From Dyella jiangningensis (GTDB lineage: Bacteria > Pseudomonadota > Gammaproteobacteria > Xanthomonadales > Rhodanobacteraceae), in NCBI RefSeq assembly GCF_003264855.1, contig NZ_NFZS01000001.1, forward strand, positions 1,736,001 to 1,800,000: a DNA stretch of 64,000 bases. Reading direction: 5' to 3'. The notes below the pieces were generated by a model that had not been told where the DNA came from, ran no database searches, and saw only the letters and a list, made by a program, of their open reading frames with translations. Position numbers and translations under genes: made by a program. Positions 8,724-59,151 of this stretch are shown in pieces (position 1 is the stretch's first letter; every line of letters begins with the position of its first letter).

Positions 8724-10235
8724 ATGCAGCGCTATTTTTCGCAAGGACTGTTCGGGCGTGATCTGCTCGGTTCGGTCGTGGTGTTCCTGGTGGCGTTGCC
8801 GCTGTGCATGGGCATCGCCATCGCCTCGGGCATGCCGCCCGCCGCCGGTTTGATCACCGGCATCGTGGGCGGCGTGATGGTCGGCGCCATCGCCGGCTCA
8901 CCCTTGCAGGTCAGTGGCCCTGCGGCGGGCCTGGCGGTACTGGTGTTCGAACTGGTGCGTGAGCACGGCGTGGCTGCACTGGGTCCCGTGGTGTTGCTGG
9001 CGGGCCTGATCCAGATCGCGGCAGGCGTGTGCCGCGCCGGCGTGTGGTTTCGCATGTGCTCGCCCGCGGTCGTGGCCGGCATGTTGTCGGGCATCGGCGT
9101 GCTTATCGTGGCTTCGCAGATGCATGTGTTGATGGATGCGGTGCCCAAGGCGCGCGGACTGGAGAACTTCGCCGCCTGGCCGGGGGCGCTGGTCGATGCG
9201 CTGCAAGGCGAGAACGGCAGCGTGGCCGCATTGGGTGTCGGCGTCGGCACCATCGCCATCATGCTTGCTTGGGACAAGCTGCGTCCGGCGAAGCTGCGCT
9301 TCCTGCCCGGTGCCTTGCTGGCGGTGGTGACACTGACCGTCGCGGTGCAGGTGATGAAGCTGTCGGTGAAGACGGTGGACGTGCCGTCCAATCTCATGGC
9401 GGCGGTGGCTGTCCCGAGCTGGAGTGGTCTGGCCGGCTTGCTCGAGCCGTCGTTGTTGATCGCGGCACTCACGTTCGCCTTCATCGCGAGCGCAGAGACC
9501 CTGCTGTCGGCGGCGGCCGTCGATCGCATGCATGACGGCGCGCGTACGCGCTATGACCGTGAACTCACGGCGCAAGGCGTCGGCAACATGCTATGCGGTC
9601 TGCTGGGCGCCTTGCCCATGACAGGCGTGATCGTGCGCAGCGCCGCCAATGTGCAGGCGGGTTCGGCCACGCGCATGGCGACCATCATGCACGGCGCATG
9701 GTTGCTGGTGTTCGCGGCGTTGTTGCCGTGGCTGATGCGCATGACGCCGGTGGCGTGCCTCGCGGGCATCCTCGTCTACACCGGCATCAAGATGGTGAAC
9801 TTCAAGCAGGTGAAGGTGCTGGCGCAATATGGCAAGGGCACGGCGTGGATCTACGTCGCGACCACGCTCGCCATCGTGGCGACGGATCTTCTGGCGGGCG
9901 TGCTGGTGGGTTTCGCGCTCTCGCTGTTCCGTCTCGCGCTGCATTCGTCGCGGCTCAAGGTGAACCTGCACCAGCATGACGAGCCCGGCAATGCCTCGCT
10001 GCGCCTCGAAGGTTCGGCCACCTTCCTGCGCGTGCCGTCAGTGGCGCGCACGCTGGAGCGCGTGCCGCCGAACACGCGATTGCAACTGGTGGTGGATCGT
10101 CTTCATCACGTCGACCAGGCCTGTCTGGAACTGCTGCGCGAATGGGGCCGCAATGCGTCGTCGCGCGGCTGCGAGCTGGTGGTGGACTGGCAGCAGCTCG
10201 ACCAGCGCGTGGAAGGCGTGAGAAGGGCCGCATAG
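8724..10235 (+). CDS. SulP-family anion transporter with C-terminal STAS domain (probable bicarbonate transporter)
   Basis: An inner-membrane protein of about 503 residues. It begins MQRYFSQGLFGRDLLGSVVV and has ten or more hydrophobic segments. The SulP signature region VALPLCMGIAIASGMPPAAG lies near residue 30. A C-terminal STAS-like domain occupies about residues 425-500 (LRLEGSATFLRVPSV...LQLVVDRLHHVD). SulP proteins move sulfate, bicarbonate or dicarboxylates. Being second in an operon with carbonic anhydrase argues for bicarbonate, as in other CA-SulP pairs. A GTG one codon upstream (8721) is an equally possible start; GAGG lies 9-12 bases away. After its stop come two 104-bp repeats instead of a simple terminator. 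Confidence 0.88.
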   Translation: MQRYFSQGLFGRDLLGSVVVFLVALPLCMGIAIASGMPPAAGLITGIVGGVMVGAIAGSPLQVSGPAAGLAVLVFELVREHGVAALGPVVLLAGLIQIAAGVCRAGVWFRMCSPAVVAGMLSGIGVLIVASQMHVLMDAVPKARGLENFAAWPGALVDALQGENGSVAALGVGVGTIAIMLAWDKLRPAKLRFLPGALLAVVTLTVAVQVMKLSVKTVDVPSNLMAAVAVPSWSGLAGLLEPSLLIAALTFAFIASAETLLSAAAVDRMHDGARTRYDRELTAQGVGNMLCGLLGALPMTGVIVRSAANVQAGSATRMATIMHGAWLLVFAALLPWLMRMTPVACLAGILVYTGIKMVNFKQVKVLAQYGKGTAWIYVATTLAIVATDLLAGVLVGFALSLFRLALHSSRLKVNLHQHDEPGNASLRLEGSATFLRVPSVARTLERVPPNTRLQLVVDRLHHVDQACLELLREWGRNASSRGCELVVDWQQLDQRVEGVRRAA

Positions 10236-51244: not shown

Positions 51245-52249
51245 ATGTCCGCACCGATCGAAGAGTTTCGTTTTGACGGCCAGCCCGAGGCGCTGGATGC
51301 GCTCGTCGCCGATGCGCGCCCCAGGATCATTCGGGGGCTGGTGAAGCACTGGCCGCTGGTGGCGATGGCGCGGCAATCCGACCGGGCATTCGCATCGCAC
51401 CTCATCGCGCACGACAACGGCACGACCGTCGATGCGCTGGTGATGCCGCCCGAGGCCGATGGCGTGGTGGGTTATCGCGGCGACGTGGAGGCGTTCAACT
51501 TCAGCCACTACAAGGTGACCGTGACGCAGGTGCTGCAACGCCTGCTGGCATCCATCGATCAGGACCAGGCGCCGGGCATTGCCTTGCAAAGCGCCACCAT
51601 CGCCGGTTGCCTGCCGAAGCTGCTTGCCGAGCATGCGGTGCCCATGCTCGACCCTGCGATTCCGCCGCGGCTGTGGATCGGCAACCGGGTCACGACGCCC
51701 GCGCATTTCGACGAATACCAGAACATCGCCTGCGTGGTATGCGGCGTTCGGCGATTCACGCTGTTTCCGCCGGAGCAGGTGCGTAACCTCTATGTCGGCC
51801 CGCTGGATTTCGCGCCGACCGGCGCGGCGATAAGCATCGCGCGCCTCGATCGCCCGGACGACCCCCGCTTCCCGCGATTGAAGCTCGCGCTGGAGCATGC
51901 GTTGGTGGCCGAGCTGGAGCCTGGCGATGCGGTCTATATCCCGCCGATGTGGTGGCACCACGTCGCTTCGCTCGGCAAGCTCAATGCATTGGTGAACTAC
52001 TGGTGGAAGCCTCCGCAAGGCAAGGGCCTGGTGCCCAATACGCGCCTTGGCGGCCTTCTGCACGCCATCCTGTTGTTCAAGTCGTTGCCGCCGGCGGAAC
52101 GTGCGGCGTGGCGCGAACTGCTCGATTACTACGTGTTCGGCGACGATGATCCTGCCGCACATCTTCCCGAGGGAAAACGTGGCTGGCTGGGTGAGCTCGA
52201 CGCTGAGCAGTCGATGAAGTTGCTGGAGCGCATTCGCCACTACCTCTAG
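51245..52249 (+). CDS. Cupin-like (JmjC-type) 2-oxoglutarate-dependent oxygenase candidate
   Basis: About 334 residues. A double-stranded beta-helix enzyme by its motifs: metal ligands H-x-D in TPAHFDEYQN near residue 156 and a distal His in MWWHHVASL near residue 238, with IIRGLVKHWPLV near the N-terminus. These mark the cupin_8/JmjC group, many of which hydroxylate proteins. The target is unknown. ATG 51227 would add six residues; ribosome sites are weak for both. The gene is flanked on both sides by REP-like palindromes. Confidence 0.85.
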   Translation: MSAPIEEFRFDGQPEALDALVADARPRIIRGLVKHWPLVAMARQSDRAFASHLIAHDNGTTVDALVMPPEADGVVGYRGDVEAFNFSHYKVTVTQVLQRLLASIDQDQAPGIALQSATIAGCLPKLLAEHAVPMLDPAIPPRLWIGNRVTTPAHFDEYQNIACVVCGVRRFTLFPPEQVRNLYVGPLDFAPTGAAISIARLDRPDDPRFPRLKLALEHALVAELEPGDAVYIPPMWWHHVASLGKLNALVNYWWKPPQGKGLVPNTRLGGLLHAILLFKSLPPAERAAWRELLDYYVFGDDDPAAHLPEGKRGWLGELDAEQSMKLLERIRHYL

Positions 52250-52260
52250 CGCGATATCTC

Positions 52261-52338
52261 CTGTAGGAGCGCACCCAGTGCGCGACCACGAGCGGAGCGC
52301 CTCAGCTCCGCGGTCGCGCACTGGGTGCGCTCCTACAG
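52261..52338. repeat. REP-like palindrome, downstream of the cupin gene
   Basis: 27-bp perfect arms (CTGTAGGAGCGCACCCAGTG... at 52261-52287 and its complement at 52312-52338), with an inner GAGCGGAG/CTCCGC hairpin. It sits between convergent genes and 17 bases before a DnaA-box triad unit. Confidence 0.93.
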
Positions 52339-52355
52339 TGATAGGGAGCGGCGCG

Positions 52356-52461
52356 TTTTCCACAGCCCATGTGGATGCACACGGGAAAAGCCTGTGGATA
52401 GGTGTGCTATCTGCTTGATGGCAAAAGCGCGGCGACGCGATGCTGCGCAAATGCGCAATCG
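52356..52461. repeat. DnaA-box-like triad unit, isolated copy (copy A)
   Basis: Boxes TTTTCCACA (52356), TGTGGATGC (52370) and TGTGGATAG (52393) at offsets 0, +14 and +37, then GATAG-GTGTG-CTATC and a tail ending GCAAATGCGCAATCG. The same layout recurs five times at 56.6-57.3 kb. It ends just before the stop codon of the divergently oriented LysR gene. Confidence 0.85.
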
Positions 52462-52463
52462 TT

Positions 52464-53360
52464 CTACTCGGCGTGGCGGTTGAATTCCGTCTTCAACCAG
52501 CGGGCCAGGGCCTCCGACCGTTCGGCCGGCATGCGTGACGGCGTAGCGAGCACCCATTGCGCGGAAGAGTCCACGAAACCCCAGGGTGCGACCAATCGCC
52601 CCGATGCCAGGTCGTCGGCCACCAGCGGCTCAGGCGCCATGGCGAGGCCACGCCCGGCGACGGCAGCTTCGATCAGGTGGTAGAGGTGCGGATAGCCCTG
52701 CGCCATGGACAGTTGCGCAGGCACCATGCCGATGGCCTGTGCCCAACTGCTCCACACGCGGGGTCTCGATTGCGTATGCAGCAGCGGCAGCTCGAGGATC
52801 ACCTCGGGTGGTCTCCCGATCAGCCGGCGGGCTTTCGCAAACTCGGGGCTGACCACCGGGCCGATGCGTTCGCGCAGCAGGGGACGCACATGCCACGACG
52901 CCGGCCAGGGCGCTTCCCCGGCAAGCACGGCGGCGTCGAGGCCACCGAGGGCATCATCGAACGGTGCCTCCTGCGGGCGCAGGTGCAGGTCGAGGTCAGG
53001 CAGGTCGGCCATCAGGCGTTCGAGGCGGGGAATCATCCAGCGTGCGAGCAGGCTGACCGGACAGCCCAGCACGAAAGGCGTGTGGCCGGCTTCGGGCCGC
53101 AGCGACTCCACCGTGTCGCGCAACTGGGCAAACGCCGCCGTGCTGGTGTCGCGCAGGCGCTGCCCGGCCGGCGTGAGCGCCAGACCGCGTCCCTGGCGCT
53201 GGAACAAGGCCAGGCCGAGCTCTTCCTCCAGTGAGCGGATGTGTCGGCTCACGGCCCCGTGGGTGACGTGCAGCTCGACCGCTGCCTTGCTCACGCTTCC
53301 CAGTCGGGCAGCGGCTTCGAAGGCGAGCAGGGCATTCAATGAGGGCAATGGCCGGGGCAT
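52464..53360 (-). CDS. trpI: LysR-family regulator, TrpI-like activator of trpBA
   Basis: 298 residues from ATG 53360. The longer frame to 53465 crosses the divergent promoter and is rejected. The N-terminal winged helix is LSLNALLAFEAAARLGSVSK-type text (LPSLNALLAFEAAARLGSVS), then ELHVTHGAVSRHIRSLEEEL, typical of the GcvA/TrpI branch. In pseudomonads and xanthomonads TrpI is divergent from trpBA and activates it in response to indole-glycerol phosphate. That arrangement is exact here (104 bases apart), with a T-N11-A dyad between them. Identity as TrpI rests on context. Confidence 0.82.
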   Translation of the reverse strand: MPRPLPSLNALLAFEAAARLGSVSKAAVELHVTHGAVSRHIRSLEEELGLALFQRQGRGLALTPAGQRLRDTSTAAFAQLRDTVESLRPEAGHTPFVLGCPVSLLARWMIPRLERLMADLPDLDLHLRPQEAPFDDALGGLDAAVLAGEAPWPASWHVRPLLRERIGPVVSPEFAKARRLIGRPPEVILELPLLHTQSRPRVWSSWAQAIGMVPAQLSMAQGYPHLYHLIEAAVAGRGLAMAPEPLVADDLASGRLVAPWGFVDSSAQWVLATPSRMPAERSEALARWLKTEFNRHAE

Positions 53361-53362
53361 GG

Positions 53363-53387
53363 CATCTGTGAGTTTATTTGACAGATG
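53363..53387. promoter_or_regulatory. LysR-type operator (T-N11-A dyad) between trpI and trpB
   Basis: CATCTGT (53363-53369), 11 bases, ACAGATG (53381-53387): a perfect 7-bp inverted repeat with the T-N11-A spacing of LysR regulators. It begins three bases upstream of the regulator's own ATG, so it fits autorepression plus trpBA activation. Confidence 0.6.
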
Positions 53388-53463
53388 ACGGCGATCATAT
53401 CGCTTTTGGGGAACCAGCCGCTGGGGTAGGGTGTCGAGCGCATCCCCGCTTGCGAGTGTCCCC

Positions 53464-54672
53464 ATGACGAAGATCGACTTCAGCGCCTATCCCGACGAGC
53501 ACGGCCGGTTCGGCGCCTACGGCGGCAGCTATGTCGCCGAAACCCTGATGGCTCCGTTGGCCGAGCTGACCGAGGCCTACCTGCGCCTGCGCGAGGATCC
53601 CGCGTTCCTGGCCGAACTGGACCGTGACCTGAAGTACTACGTGGGCCGTCCCAGCCCGATCTATTACGCCGAGCGGCTGTCGCAGCAGGTGGGCGGCGCG
53701 CGCATCCTGCTCAAGCGCGAAGACCTCAACCACACCGGCGCGCACAAGATCAACAACACCATCGGCCAGGCCCTGGTGGCCAAACGCATGGGCAAGCCGC
53801 GCATCATCGCGGAGACCGGCGCGGGCCAGCATGGTGTGGCCAGTGCCACGGTCGCTGCACGTTTCGGCCTCAAGTGCGTGGTGTACATGGGCGCGGTCGA
53901 CATCGAGCGGCAGAAGATCAACGTCTACCGCATGAAGCTGCTCGGCGCGGAAGTGGTGCCGGTGACCTCGGGCTCCAAGACGCTGAAGGATGCGCTCAAC
54001 GAAGCGATGCGTGACTGGGTCACCAACGTGGCCGACACCTTCTACATCATCGGTACCGTTGCCGGTCCGCATCCGTACCCGCTGATGGTGCGCGACTTCA
54101 ACAGCATCGTCGGCCGCGAGGCGCGCGTGCAGGTGCAGGAACAGTTCGGCCGCCTGCCGGACGTGATCACTGCCTGCGTGGGTGGTGGTTCCAATGCGAT
54201 CGGCCTGTTCCACGCGTTCCTCAACGACGAGAAGGTACGCATCGTTGGCGCCGAGGCGGCGGGCGAAGGCATTGCCACGGGCCATCACGCCGCTTCGCTG
54301 GCGGCAGGGCGGCCCGGCGTGCTGCACGGCAATCGCACCTACGTGCTGTGCGACGACAACGGACAGATCACCGAAACGCATTCGGTCTCGGCCGGTCTCG
54401 ATTATCCGGGTGTCGGCCCCGAGCACGCGTTCCTGAAGGACGCAGGGCGCGCCGAATACGTCGGCGTCACCGATGACGAGGCGCTCGAAGCGTTCCACTT
54501 GCTGGCGCGCACGGAAGGCATTCTTGCCGCTTTGGAATCGAGCCATGCCGTGGCGCAGGCGATCAAGCTGGCGCGTGAATACCCGAAGGATGGCCTCGTG
54601 CTGTGCAACCTTTCCGGCCGCGGTGACAAGGACGTGCACACGATTGCTGCACGTGAAGGAGTGCAGGTATGA
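53464..54672 (+). CDS. trpB: Tryptophan synthase beta chain
   Basis: Condenses indole and serine using PLP. It has 402 residues from ATG 53464 ([20 protein letters not shown]); the frame back to 53431 is not used because the family starts here. The PLP lysine is Lys95 in [14 protein letters not shown]. The phosphate-binding loop [10 protein letters not shown] and the C-terminal [17 protein letters not shown] are intact. It is coupled to trpA by ATGA. Confidence 0.98.
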
Positions 54673-55466
54673 GCCGCATCGACCGTCGTTTCGATCAGTT
54701 GAAATCCGCCGGACGCACCGGGCTCATTCCCTTCGTCACCGCGGGCGATCCGTCGCCGCCGAATGCCGTGGCGCTGATGCATGCGCTGGTGGACGCCGGT
54801 GCCGACCTGATCGAACTGGGCGTGCCGTTTTCCGATCCCATGGCGGATGGCCCGGTGATCCAGCATGCCAGCGAGCGTGCGATCGCCAAGGGCGTGGGTC
54901 TTGCCGATGTGCTGGGTTGGGTCACGCAGTTCCGCCAGCGCGACGCGGATACCCCGATCGTGCTGATGGGCTATCTCAACCCCATCGAAATCCATGGTTA
55001 TGCCCGCTTCGCCAAGGAGGCGGTGCAGGCGGGCGTGGACGGCGTGCTGATCGTCGATTGCCCCCTGGAAGAGGCGGCGGTGCTCAAGCCGCTGAAGGAT
55101 GCCGGCCTGCAGCAGATCCTGCTGGCGGCGCCTACGACCGCACCCTCGCGTATGGTGCAGTTGTGCGGGTCGGCCGAGGGTTTCCTGTACTATGTCTCGT
55201 TCGCCGGCATCACGGGCGCGGCACGATTGAGCACCGATGACATCGCGGCTCGCGTGGCCGATATCCGTGCGAAGTCCAAGGCGCCGGTGGCCGTGGGTTT
55301 CGGCGTGCGCGATGCGCAGTCGGCCAGGGCCATCGCCGGCTTCGCGGATGCCGTGGTGATTGGCAGTGCGCTGGTGGAGCGCCTGGCGGGTGCGGAGGAC
55401 GTCGATGACGTCGTCGCGCGCGCCAAGGGGTTTCTCGCGCCGATACGGCAAGCGCTGGACGCCTGA
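54669..55466 (+). CDS. trpA: Tryptophan synthase alpha chain
   Basis: Cleaves indole-glycerol phosphate. It has 265 residues. Catalytic Glu49 and Asp60 are in [18 protein letters not shown]. The phosphate-binding text [14 protein letters not shown]-type ([13 protein letters not shown]) is present near residue 215. The start overlaps the trpB stop (ATGA). The gap to accD holds two hairpin repeats in opposite orientation. Confidence 0.97.
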
Positions 55467-55469
55467 CGC

Positions 55470-55625
55470 TTAGCTCCTTCTCCCTTTCGGGGAGAGGGCT
55501 GGGGTGAGGGGCGGGGCTTGCGGTAGCAGTGGAATGAGCGAGCTTTGAACGCATAACAGGGTTCAAAGCCGGACTGAGGCAAGATTGACCCCTCACCTCG
55601 ACCCTCTCCCCTGAGGGGAGAGGGC
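55470..55625. repeat. Two CCCTCACCCC-type hairpins, inverted, between trpA and accD
   Basis: The first reads TCTCCCTTTCGGGGAGAGGG then CTGGGGTGAGGGG (reverse orientation). The second reads CCCCTCACCTCGA then CCCTCTCCCC and GGGGAGAGGG. About 65 bases of unique text separate them. Together they form a long dyad that ends about 24 bases before the accD ATG. Confidence 0.75.
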
Positions 55626-55648
55626 AAAAGCGTTTGAGGTTTGATGAG

Positions 55649-56521
55649 ATGAATTGGCTCCAGAAAATCATGACGCCGCGCGCCCGCACCGAAGCCACCG
55701 GCACCGGTGGCAAGGGCAAGGTGCCGGAAGGCGTGTGGGAGAAGTGCGGCGGCTGCGGCACGGTGCTGTACCGGCCCGAGCTGGAACGCAACCTGATGGT
55801 GTGCCCCAAGTGCGGCCACCACCACACCATCGATGCGCGCGCGCGCCTGGATTCGTTCCTCGATCCGGGTTCGGCGCAGGAACTGTGGGCCAGCATGGAG
55901 CCGAGCGACCCGCTCAAGTTCCGTGACTCCAAGAAGTACCGCGACCGCATCATCGCGGCGCAGAAGTCCACCGGCGAGAAGGACGCGCTGCTGGCGATGA
56001 GCGGCCGTCTCAAGGGCCGCCCGCTGATGGCCGTCGCCTTCGAGTTCTCCTACATGGGCGGCTCGATGGGCTCGGTGGTGGGCGAGAAGTTCACCCGTGC
56101 CGCCGAGCGCGCGCTGGCCGATCGCAGCGCGCTCGTGTGCTTCTCCGCCACGGGCGGCGCGCGCATGCAGGAATCGCTGTTCTCGCTGATGCAGATGGCA
56201 AAGACCTCGGCCGCACTTGCGCGCATGCGTGACGCGGGCGTGCCGTACATCAGCGTGCTCACGCATCCGACCACCGGTGGCGTGTCGGCGAGCCTCGGCA
56301 TGCTGGGCGACATCAACGTCGGTGAGCCGAAGGCGCTGATCGGTTTCGCCGGCCCGCGCGTGATCGAGCAGACCGTGCGCGAGACCTTGCCCGAAGGCTT
56401 CCAGCGTTCGGAGTTCCTGGTCGAGCACGGCGCGATCGACCTGATCATCGATCGCCGCGAAATGCGCGACAAGCTGGCCGACCTGCTTGGCATCCTGCAG
56501 AAGGCACCGCGCGTGGCGTAA
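55649..56521 (+). CDS. accD: Acetyl-CoA carboxylase carboxyltransferase subunit beta
   Basis: Part of the first committed step of fatty-acid synthesis, in the alpha2beta2 carboxyltransferase. It has 290 residues from ATG 55649 ([10 protein letters not shown]). The zinc ribbon C33-x2-C36 ... C52-x2-C55 is in [17 protein letters not shown] and VCPKCGHH, as in E. coli. The crotonase-like core follows ([51 protein letters not shown]). A strong terminator follows. The trpBA-accD order is common in proteobacteria. Confidence 0.97.
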
Positions 56522-56547
56522 TTCGCGCCCTGCATGTCGCATCAGAG

Positions 56548-56575
56548 ACAGCGCCCTTGTGGCGCTGTTTTTTTT
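56548..56575 (+). terminator. Rho-independent terminator of accD
   Basis: ACAGCGCC / GGCGCTGT stem with a CTTGT loop, then eight T's. It ends six bases before the first DnaA-box unit. Confidence 0.93.
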
Positions 56576-56581
56576 GCGCTG

Positions 56582-57354
56582 TTGTCCACAGCTCGTGTGG
56601 ATGTGCGCGGTGACAGCCTGTGGATAGGTGGGCTATCTGCTTGATGGCAAAGCGGTGGTGACGCGGTGGTGTTTGATTGATCAGCCGTGGGGCTTGTCCC
56701 GTGTCGCGCACAGGGTGCGCTCCCACAGCGACGCCTTAGAATTTCAAGCCGATGCCCGCGAGGCCCAAAGGGTTTTCCACAGCGAATGTGGATACGCCTC
56801 ACGACAGCCTGTGGATAGTTGCGCTATCTCGTTGATGGGGAATGCATCGCTACGCATTGATGCGAATTTGAGCAATCGAGTCGTGCGCTTTTGTGGGAGC
56901 GCACCCTATGCGCGACTGCGATACGCGATGGTTTTCCACAGCCAATGTGGATACGCGCTGCAGAAGCCTGTGGATAGTTTCGCTATCTCGTTGACGCGGA
57001 ACACATCGCTACGCATTGCTGCGAATTTGAGCAATCGAGTCGTTCGCTTTTGTGGGAGCGCACCCTGTGCGCGACTGCGGTACGCGTTGGTTTTCCACAG
57101 CCAATGTGGATACGCCTCGCGATAGCCTGTGGATAGGTGGTCTATCCCGTTGATGCCAAACGCGTCGCGACGTGGTGGCGCGCAAATGCACAGCGATGGT
57201 CGTGATTCGGTCAGACGTTCGAGGACCAACAGGTGCTCGCCGCCCAGACGCGGTTTTCCACAGCCAATGTGGATGCGTGCGGGCAAAGCCTGTGGATAGG
57301 TGCGCTATCTATCTGAGCGCAAAGCGCGTGCGACGCAGTGGTGGAGAAATGTGC
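56582..57354. repeat. Array of five DnaA-box-like triad units (copies B-F)
   Basis: Each unit has three nonamers at fixed offsets 0/+14/+37. Copy B: TTGTCCACA 56582, TGTGGATGT 56596, TGTGGATAG 56619. C: TTTTCCACA 56773, TGTGGATAC 56787, TGTGGATAG 56810. D: 56932, 56946, 56969. E: 57091, 57105, 57128. F: 57254, 57268, 57291. First boxes in C-F match the DnaA consensus TTWTNCACA exactly; the other boxes, read on the reverse strand (GTATCCACA, CTATCCACA), differ from TTATCCACA at one position. After each third box is GATAG-N5-CTATC. C-D and D-E spacing is 159 bp each. Units C and D also contain a variant REP half. Confidence 0.85.
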
Positions 57355-57372
57355 AGGGTGGCGTCAGGTTTG

Positions 57373-57438
57373 ATCGCGCACTGGGTGCGCTCCTACAAGA
57401 ACCATGATGCCCTTGTAGGAGCGCACCCAGTGCGCGAT
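57373..57438. repeat. REP-like pair, reversed (tail-to-tail) orientation
   Basis: Arms ATCGCGCACTGGGTGCGCTC...(57373-57399) and the complement at 57412-57438 are perfect over 27 bp with a 12-base loop. Here the GTCGCGCAC ends point outward, the reverse of the other full copies. It lies just after the triad array and 12 bases beyond the stop of the PAP2 gene (minus strand). Confidence 0.9.
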
Positions 57439-57449
57439 TCACGCTGGCC

Positions 57450-58022
57450 TCATCCCACCAACGCTCGCAACGGCAACAACCACAGCGACAATGCACCCAG
57501 TGCACCACCGATCGCCGTCGCGGCCATCACGTCGCTCGGATAATGCAGGCCCAGGATCACGCGCGACGCGCCCACCAGCGTGGTGAAGGTGAGCAGCAGC
57601 GGTGCCAGCAGCGGATACCAGGCCAGCGCGACGACGGTGAAGCTCACCGCCTGCAGCGTGTGTCCCGAGGGAAAACTGAATTCATCGAGTGGCGGCACGT
57701 GCGCGATCACGCCAGGACAGGCGCGAAAAGGACGCGGCCGCCGCGTCCAGCGCTTGAGCAGGCGATACAGGAACAAGGCAGTGAGGCCGGTCACCGCCAT
57801 CTGCGTAGCGGCGAGCAGGCCGCGGCGCCCGTCGATCAGGGCGAGTACCGCCATCAGCGAATACCAGAACACACCATCGCCGAGCCGGCTGATGATGCCG
57901 AAGAAGACGCCGACGGCGCGGCGCGTACCCCAGCGGTTGGCGGCCACGCACATGCGGCGGTCGATGGCCAGGCGAGGGCCGACGGGAAGATCAGGCGTGT
58001 GCAGCGGTGGCATGGTGCTCAT
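57450..58022 (-). CDS. PAP2-family membrane phosphatase
   Basis: 190 residues from ATG 58022 (GGAG seven bases upstream). The three PAP2 motifs are complete: KRWTRRPRP (residues 90-98), PSGH (118-121) and SRVILGLHYPSD (153-164). The active-site His121 and His160 and Asp164 are present. Several hydrophobic spans place it in the inner membrane with a periplasmic active site, acting on lipid phosphates such as undecaprenyl or phosphatidate-type phosphates. The start lies within the last 32 bases of the glycosyltransferase gene, so the two are coupled and likely work on a common glycolipid. Confidence 0.9.
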   Translation of the reverse strand: MSTMPPLHTPDLPVGPRLAIDRRMCVAANRWGTRRAVGVFFGIISRLGDGVFWYSLMAVLALIDGRRGLLAATQMAVTGLTALFLYRLLKRWTRRPRPFRACPGVIAHVPPLDEFSFPSGHTLQAVSFTVVALAWYPLLAPLLLTFTTLVGASRVILGLHYPSDVMAATAIGGALGALSLWLLPLRALVG

Positions 58023-59151
58023 GCACGTTCTCCTGGGCCAGTTCACGCAAGAGGGTTTCGAATTCGCGAATCACGGCGTCGGGCGAAAGATTGGCGATGC
58101 TGGCGTGAGCCGCGCGTCCCATGTGGCGGATCAGGCTGGCGTTGGCGGCAAGCGTCACGGCCGACTCGATGAAGGTTTTCTCGTCACCGGCGTCGATGCG
58201 ATAGCCGTTCTGGCCATGCAGCAGGTGTTCGCGCGCGGCGCCTTCCTCGTAGGCGACCACGGGCAGGCCCGCAGCCAGCGCTTCCAGGATCACGTTGCCG
58301 AAGGTTTCGCTGAGGCTGGGGAAGGGGAACAGATCCGCACTCGCGTAATGACGCGCCAGCGCTTCGCCGCGCTGCATGCCGACAAAGATGAAATCCGGAT
58401 TGGCGGCCTGCAGCGCCGCGCGGGCCGGGCCATCGCCCACCCATACATAGCGGGCCTTGGACACCTGCTGCTGGATGGCGCGGAACGTGCGCACCGCGAG
58501 ATCGAGGTTCTTCTCGGGCGCGATGCGTCCGACATAGAGCACCACCGGCGTATTGCCGTCGACGCCCCAGGTCTCGCGCAGCTCCGCGCTGCGATGGCGC
58601 GGATGAAACAACTGGGTATCCACCGCACGACGCAGCAGGCGCGCCGTATCGACGCCCAGCGCAGCAAGTTCATTGGCCAGCGCATCGGTGGGCACCAGCG
58701 TGGCGGCGGCACGACGATGGAAGCGGCGCAGGTAGCCACGTACGACCGGCGTGAGGAAACCTACGCCGTAGTGATCGGCGTAAGCGTCGAAACGGGTGTG
58801 GAAGCCTGTGGCCGCCGGTATGCCCAGTCGCTTGGCGGTGCGGATGGCCGACCAGCCCAGCGGGCCTTCGGTGGCGACGTAGATCGCGTCGGGGCGCAAC
58901 CGTGTCCAGCGTTCACGCAACGCGCCACCCGCCGGCCAGCCGAAGCGCAGTCCCGGGTAGCGCGGCAGCGATGCACCGGGCACCTCCAGCGCGACGATGC
59001 CGGGTTCGTCCTGGAACGATTTTTCCTGGCGGGGACGAATGAGGTCGACCGTGTGCCCCTGTGCCGCGAGTCCGGCGGCGAGGCTGTGCACGGTCAGTGC
59101 CACGCCGTTGATTTCGGGTGGATAGGTCTCGCTGACAATGCCGATGCGCAT
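57991..59151 (-). CDS. Glycosyltransferase family 4 (GT-B) protein
   Basis: 386 residues starting MRIGIVSETYPPEINGVALT, typical of GT4 enzymes that take GDP-mannose or UDP sugars. Features are the Gly-rich N-terminal loop EINGVALTVHSLAAGLAAQG, the nucleotide-binding PVVLYVGRIAPEKNLD near residue 205, and the E-x7-E motif SLSETFGNVILEALAAGLPV near residue 285. It is a member of the MgtA-type/alpha-mannosyltransferase group. The acceptor is not evident; coupling to a PAP2 phosphatase points to a membrane glycolipid. The C-terminus is His/Ala-rich. Confidence 0.9.
   Translation of the reverse strand: MRIGIVSETYPPEINGVALTVHSLAAGLAAQGHTVDLIRPRQEKSFQDEPGIVALEVPGASLPRYPGLRFGWPAGGALRERWTRLRPDAIYVATEGPLGWSAIRTAKRLGIPAATGFHTRFDAYADHYGVGFLTPVVRGYLRRFHRRAAATLVPTDALANELAALGVDTARLLRRAVDTQLFHPRHRSAELRETWGVDGNTPVVLYVGRIAPEKNLDLAVRTFRAIQQQVSKARYVWVGDGPARAALQAANPDFIFVGMQRGEALARHYASADLFPFPSLSETFGNVILEALAAGLPVVAYEEGAAREHLLHGQNGYRIDAGDEKTFIESAVTLAANASLIRHMGRAAHASIANLSPDAVIREFETLLRELAQENVHEHHATAAHA

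Follow-up and report, generated by a model that had tools for sequence, protein, structure and literature searches.

The intergenic region between accD and a PAP2-superfamily gene of Dyella jiangningensis contains a tandem array of candidate DnaA-binding control elements. Their architecture is that of DARS, the DnaA-reactivating sequence of E. coli, and we put the probability that the array consists of tandem DARS-like units reloading ADP-DnaA at slightly above one half (about 0.55).

One unit occurs six times in the window, that is, the whole stretch of 64,000 nucleotides analysed. Five copies form the array at 56582-57309, and the sixth, unit 0, starts at 52356. Each unit consists of box I, TTNTCCACA, on the plus strand, a spacer of five nucleotides, box II, TGTGGAT.., on the minus strand, and box III, TGTGGATAG, also on the minus strand. 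The boxes start at exactly 0/+14/+37 and are followed by the inverted repeat GATAG-N5-CTATC. The full pattern, TTNTCCACA-N5-TGTGGAT-N16-TGTGGATAG-N5-CTATC, is matched with no mismatches at 56582, 56773, 56932, 57091 and 57254, exactly as described in the first-pass annotation. Chance does not account for this geometry, as six matches in the window compare with none in 100 dinucleotide shuffles, and the reversed control pattern had no match in 147 genomes of the family. The earlier count of five units was correct for the array and incomplete for the window, as unit 0 was not included.

Unit 0 (52356-52411, plus strand) has box I at 52356-52364 (+), box II at 52370-52378 (-), box III at 52393-52401 (-), and GATAG-N5-CTATC at 52397-52411. 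In unit 1 (56582-56637, plus strand) the same features are at 56582-56590 (+), 56596-56604 (-), 56619-56627 (-), and 56623-56637. Boxes I, II and III are at 56773-56781 (+), 56787-56795 (-) and 56810-56818 (-) in unit 2 (56773-56828, plus strand), at 56932-56940 (+), 56946-56954 (-) and 56969-56977 (-) in unit 3 (56932-56987, plus strand), at 57091-57099 (+), 57105-57113 (-) and 57128-57136 (-) in unit 4 (57091-57146, plus strand), and at 57254-57262 (+), 57268-57276 (-) and 57291-57299 (-) in unit 5 (57254-57309, plus strand). The start-to-start steps within the array are 191, 159, 159 and 163. The two steps of exactly 159 bp, also seen earlier, arise because units 2 and 3 sit in a 159-bp tandem duplication with 89% identity; thus the array grew by duplication.

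The first-pass description of three DnaA-box-like nonamers per unit holds well for boxes I and III, which in the window units fit TTWTNCACA at 8 or 9 of 9 positions. Box II, which is TGTGGATGC, TGTGGATAC or TGTGGATGT, is a poorer match. The repeat GATAG-N5-CTATC, reported to follow the triad, is present in all six window units and occupies +41 to +55 in Dyella-type units; it was not seen in the listed units of Xanthomonas and Stenotrophomonas.

The array lies between two convergent genes that both point at it, accD on the left (55634-56521, plus strand; PF01039, PF17848; the true start may be slightly downstream) and the PAP2-superfamily gene on the right (57450-58046, minus strand; PF01569). 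Unit 0 lies between convergent cupin-type and lysR-type genes, as identified by Pfam. Outside the window, the genome contains one exact triad (G000:C4:1114421) and one with a single mismatch (C4:1114307), both between convergent genes for a DUF4124 protein and a short-chain dehydrogenase (SDR). The proteins adjoining the units are 86-97% identical to their counterparts in D. solisilvae (L046) and D. jiangningensis (L101).

Given the convergent neighbours, one could suggest that these are RNA hairpins, bidirectional terminators or an ordinary dispersed repeat of intergenic DNA. The inverted repeats TCCACA-N5-TGTGGA and GATAG-N5-CTATC agree with this, as do the REP-like elements interleaved with the units. 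One such element lies between units 1 and 2 (56703-56727, minus strand) and is a dispersed repeat separate from the unit; others are at 56892-56916 and 57050-57075, as an inverted pair near 57374-57437, and at 52258-52340. These GTGGGAGCGCACCC elements interleave the array spacers and have many further matches across the genome. A search of the genome with an 821-base array query reported 138 matches, one place often being counted on both strands, and the listed matches beyond the array and unit 0 all fall on the REP-like spacers. The unit itself does not scatter. The first-pass annotation had proposed that hundreds of scattered copies would make it a dispersed repeat, and the genome-wide check found seven exact triads, six of them in the window. 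Identity of the unit with a REP or other dispersed repeat was rejected on this count, whereas the REP-like spacer does scatter widely; unlike a REP element, the unit occurs at few conserved junctions. No promoter-like or terminator-like sites (0 terminators) were found in 56480-57480. The Rfam search of 52000-58500 gave 11 matches at a loose threshold and none at gathering score, so an RNA element was rejected; nine of the 11 belong to microRNA families, and seven of these nine fall on two REP-like hairpins. Overall, the hairpin or repeat explanation is most improbable.

The absence of dnaA from the vicinity and the improbability of the region being oriC, both suggested earlier, were borne out. 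The dnaA gene (G000:C1:1-1362) lies 1.79 Mb from the array on the same contig, contig 1, which begins at dnaA. It is followed by dnaN at G000:C1:1618, with DnaA boxes between the two genes. The assignment of the array as oriC was rejected, as dnaA and dnaN are located elsewhere. The probable oriC (G000:C1:1415-1553) lies in the dnaA-dnaN gap; it contains a TTATCCACG box and a pair of perfect TTATCCACA boxes on opposite strands.

In E. coli DARS1 the boxes TTATCCACT, TGTGGATAA and TGTGTATTA lie at 0/+14/+26, and box I is opposed (TTATCCACT-ATTCC-TGTGGATAA). The DARS2 region matches this layout at L022:9136 and, less well, at 9452, where box I has three mismatches and box III is also poor. By its better fit, we read the triad at L022:9136 as the probable published DARS2 core. 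The box II-III pairs of DARS1 and DARS2 given in a ChIP-seq table (PMC11317965) agree with the triads identified here, and DARS1 and DARS2 are described as having the same spacing, with box I opposed to boxes II and III (PMC5742627). The head-to-head pair is held responsible for ADP release at E. coli DARS (PMC5742627, PMC8682772), and DARS has been described as conserved in species close to E. coli (PMC4245941, PMC5742627).

The window units share with DARS1 and DARS2 the three DnaA boxes, the opposed box I and the I-II distance of 14 (6/6 units), as well as the intergenic location away from oriC. The opposed 0/+14 pair, being common to DARS1 and DARS2, supports a DARS-like reading. On the other hand, box III of the array units is at +37 instead of +26, that is, 11 bp or about one helical turn farther out. 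The +26 spacing was looked for and is not the one used, and thus the array is classed as a DARS-like variant, not as DARS. It also differs in comprising several units (up to 14 exact ones per genome), whereas in the E. coli literature available to us each DARS is described as a single site. A BLAST search of E. coli with one unit gave no match.

The D. jiangningensis genome also contains a core with the canonical 0/+14/+26 layout, upstream of priA (G000:C4:1121552-1121586; L019:13553-13587, minus strand). It reads TTATCCACA-N5-TGTGGATAA-N3-TGTGGATCG, with perfect boxes I and II. When the gap before the third box was allowed to vary from 2 to 32 bases, the 147 family genomes yielded 453 matches, of which 292 are at +37, 132 at +26, and 29 at the other 29 gaps. 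The +26 form occurs in 130 of these genomes and is single-copy in all but two; a PriA match was found beside it in 28 of 30 fetched family loci. With at most three mismatches, the +26 core was found in 303 of 369 genomes of the class, although so loose a pattern may take in other DnaA-box clusters; the reversed control gave 0 among the rows listed. Among the class-wide loci with this core (e.g. L220, L222, L223, L239 and L242), 30 were fetched; eleven of these contain a PriA match, and none of the 30 matches E. coli UvrB, BioD, MutH or RppH.

Sites outside the searched pattern were analysed in nonredundant samples, in which 64-66 of 118-122 units and 25 of 31 priA elements were used. The thinned samples retain some relatedness and the shuffles ignore kinship, so the shuffle maxima below overstate significance. 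The 27 wider-scan loci not titled Xanthomonadales or kin were left out of these counts; L150, titled Proteobacteria, was kept.

A degenerate DnaA box, oriented like boxes II and III, occupies +25 to +33 between them and has a mean of 4.62 of 8 informative matches in 65 units (shuffle maximum 2.65). The base preferences in 66 units of the order are A at +33 (65 units), A at +32 (52), A at +30 (42) and G at +28 (45). The gaps from this box to boxes II and III are 2 and 3 bp, and E. coli DnaA prefers pairs of boxes 2 and 3 bp apart (PMC11317965). The +25 box would thus create head-to-tail boxes as in the double DnaA boxes of E. coli described there, but with an additional opposed box I and a degenerate middle box. 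DARS1 and DARS2 differ from the array form, which has this extra box across the order. The window units match the +25 box poorly, at 3-6 of 9 positions in the six units (4 of 9 in unit 1, at 56607-56615 on the minus strand, and the same offset in the other units). This counts against the DARS-like reading, as boxes II and III are then effectively 14 bp apart.

Downstream of the boxes there is an AT-rich palindrome (e.g. GGTCAAAAAATGACC). Its start falls at +84 to +88 in 53 of 64 array units, where no shuffle exceeded a count of 8, and at +86 to +90 in all 25 priA elements, for which the highest shuffle count was 5. Fewer elements fit the full Fis consensus (PMC8682772), namely 21 of 64 array units (+85 to +89) and 6 of 25 priA elements (+86 to +90); the shuffle maximum was 3 in both cases. 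A possible counterpart is the Fis-like site downstream in DARS2, where the consensus match is at +145 instead of about +85. The site is clear in the order and half kept in D. jiangningensis (56857-56873 in unit 2, +84 to +100, and the same offset in the other units); that the window units keep only part of the Fis-like consensus counts against the DARS-like reading.

The priA elements have an IHF match at +120 to +124 in 14 of 25 cases (shuffle maximum 2). In the array units, an IHF match was found at one place in only 4 of 64 (shuffle maximum 2), in which respect they differ from DARS2. Several window units have TTGATG after box III, which had pointed to an IHF site in each unit; this idea was rejected on the same count. 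Apart from the IHF-like match, the priA-side core differs from the array units in being single-copy and in having box III at +26. The two occur in the same genomes and share the opposed pair and a palindrome whose distance from box I is almost identical. This sharing, despite the different third box, is the best evidence that both element types are versions of one thing. A further inverted repeat, CTTG-N5-CAAG, was observed at +58 to +70 in 21 of 64 array units (at least 7 of 8 positions; shuffle maximum 3), for instance in L066, L069 and L143. We know of no protein for this repeat or for GATAG-N5-CTATC.

The same comparison bears on the possibility that the array binds another protein, a regulator or nucleoid protein with a motif resembling the DnaA box. 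A dimeric regulator could use the palindrome TCCACA-N5-TGTGGA, and box II is off consensus. Against this, the nonamer recurs at the third site in one orientation, the fit of boxes I and III to the DnaA-box consensus is close, and the same AT-rich palindrome stands beside the TTATCCACA triad at priA. We therefore consider this explanation improbable.

The +37 form occurs in 82 of the 147 family genomes, in at least two copies in 73 of them; the remaining 65 have no exact +37 triad, which counts against the DARS-like reading. Among +37 loci fetched from 29 family genomes, 22 are at accD and/or the PAP2-superfamily gene, four at the DUF4124/SDR junction, two at the cupin/lysR junction, and one (L160) at none of these. 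Thus 28 of 29 are at one of three junctions; a conserved intergenic position is what would be expected of DARS, location being judged here by distance from dnaA. The accD/PAP2 junction is also found in named Rhodanobacter and Dyella loci, with both neighbours present in L049, L057, L059, L091, L105 and L128. Both neighbours were identified in 25 family loci. They converge on the intervening units in every case, and this speaks against promoter control at those loci. The convergence is not general, as the neighbours are co-directional in two inspected loci of Xanthomonadaceae, L070 and L112 (Luteibacter). L070 is flanked by a phoH-type gene and by one encoding UPF0004, radical SAM and TRAM domains; the right neighbour in L066 is likewise of the phoH type. 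The Xanthomonas and Stenotrophomonas loci of the wider scan are at other junctions. In one genome (G098:C3:318738-319235), four units have the third box at +38, one base beyond the usual place; they account for four of the 29 matches at other gaps.

In the class, the exact +37 pattern was found in 5 of 369 genomes, which are the five genomes of this order in the sample. Among the 119 loci listed in the wider scan, 22 have at least two units, and all of these are inside the order. Another 27 are outside the order with one unit each, and this counts against the DARS-like reading. Five of these 27 loci (L043, L077, L088, L110 and L114) also match DnaA, so that their single exact 14/37 triads are possibly parts of replication origins.

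The distances of the accD array and the priA element from dnaA are, respectively, 1.97-1.98 and 0.90 Mb in G102 (4.83 Mb), 2.01-2.02 and 0.86 Mb in G113 (5.4 Mb, rounded), 1.97 and 0.74 Mb in G135 (4.8 Mb, rounded), 1.43 and 0.45 Mb in G045 (4.2 Mb, rounded), and 2.01 and 0.72 Mb in G051 (4.3 Mb, rounded, in four contigs, all these sites being on contig 4). Thus in these five relatives the accD array is about two thirds or more of the way toward the antipode, and the priA element about one fifth to two fifths.

The main rival explanation is titration, also proposed in the first-pass annotation, which by sequence would look similar. The units would only hold DnaA, with no nucleotide exchange, and free DnaA would stay low until the locus has been replicated and filled with new DnaA. 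Three or four boxes per unit in up to 14 exact units per genome could hold tens of molecules. However, a sink requires neither invariant box spacing nor an opposed pair nor a palindrome at a fixed distance. The enriched region described for E. coli is near oriC (PMC12371093), whereas 1.4-2.0 Mb separate the accD array from dnaA in the five relatives. Finally, there is no genome-wide excess of DnaA boxes in D. jiangningensis, with 54 TGTGGAWAR sites against 69 for the reversed pattern; the boxes are clustered only locally, nine in 1 kb compared with at most three in 5000 uniform random placements. Titration is thus rather unlikely, though it deserves to be kept in mind.

The analogy with E. coli datA drawn in the first-pass annotation did not hold up. 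Both are non-coding clusters of DnaA boxes outside oriC. However, the datA boxes lack the 0/+14/+37 layout, whereas DARS1 and DARS2 share the opposed 0/+14 pair, and the IHF site between the datA boxes has no counterpart found in the array units. A datA-like inactivation locus, where IHF-bent DNA would gather ATP-DnaA and promote ATP hydrolysis, would agree with a box cluster away from oriC and with the HU/IHF-type genes of the genome. The scarcity of IHF-like matches speaks against it, as does the position of the accD arrays far from dnaA, datA being described as always close to oriC in the E. coli strains treated in PMC4585315. This possibility is quite improbable.

The DnaA of D. jiangningensis has the N-terminal, AAA+ and DNA-binding domains. 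It is identical to the E. coli protein at R399, which contacts the box, and at T435, R285, R227, L290, D269 and the HTTVLHACR motif; L290 and D269 are residues used at DARS. In the recognition helix (434-451), 12 of 18 positions are identical. E21, F46, V211 and R245 of E. coli DnaA are replaced by D, Y, I and T, which counts against the DARS-like reading. The genome encodes a Hda homologue (PF22688), a Fis homologue with 39% identity to E. coli Fis over 82 residues, and four proteins matching the HU/IHF family. The conserved DnaA residues and the presence of the Fis, Hda and HU/IHF-type genes support the DARS-like reading. So do the dominance of +37 and +26 among third-box gaps, the +25 box and the shared palindrome.

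The suggestion of a DnaA-binding locus involved in replication timing, made in the first-pass annotation, thus appears well supported at the level of sequence by the fixed geometry at conserved junctions, the canonical DARS-type core and the E. coli-like DnaA. Geometry, conservation, location, and the genes for DnaA, Hda, Fis and HU/IHF-type proteins were observed directly; DnaA binding to the units is very likely, and we infer nucleotide exchange rather than titration, as well as Fis binding and dosage tuning by unit number.

The DARS-like units may act as follows. The opposed boxes I and II, separated by 5 bp at their inner ends, would each be occupied by one DnaA molecule, and the two molecules would face each other. 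A third would bind box III and, in most relatives, a fourth would occupy the degenerate box between boxes II and III, in head-to-tail orientation. Through the Fis-like site at about +85 to +100, Fis would influence the form of the complex; in the priA copy this site is followed by an IHF-like one. By analogy with DARS1 and DARS2, the head-to-head contact would make ADP-DnaA release ADP, and apo-DnaA would be reloaded with ATP for the next initiation at oriC. Since the head-to-head pair is held responsible for ADP release in E. coli, the units would reload DnaA and their copy number would set the capacity. Tandem copies would multiply it, unit number being the dosage setting.

We regard the array as a new DARS-like variant with +37 spacing. 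A literature search outside subscription journals and preprints found no report of the priA-side DARS or of tandem arrays, and no literature on DARS in Xanthomonas. Tentatively, we propose that Xanthomonadales may have, along with a canonical single-copy DARS at priA, a second, order-specific class, in which the third box has moved outward by one helical turn, a low-affinity box bridges the gap and a Fis-type site is built in. It would be tandem-amplified at a few fixed loci, and through the number of units, from 1 to 14, evolution might set DnaA reactivation and the timing of replication. The genomes form a natural series with 0 to 14 exact units at fixed junctions, which allows one to ask how DARS dosage relates to initiation mass, and whether the positions of box III and the Fis and IHF sites are interchangeable.
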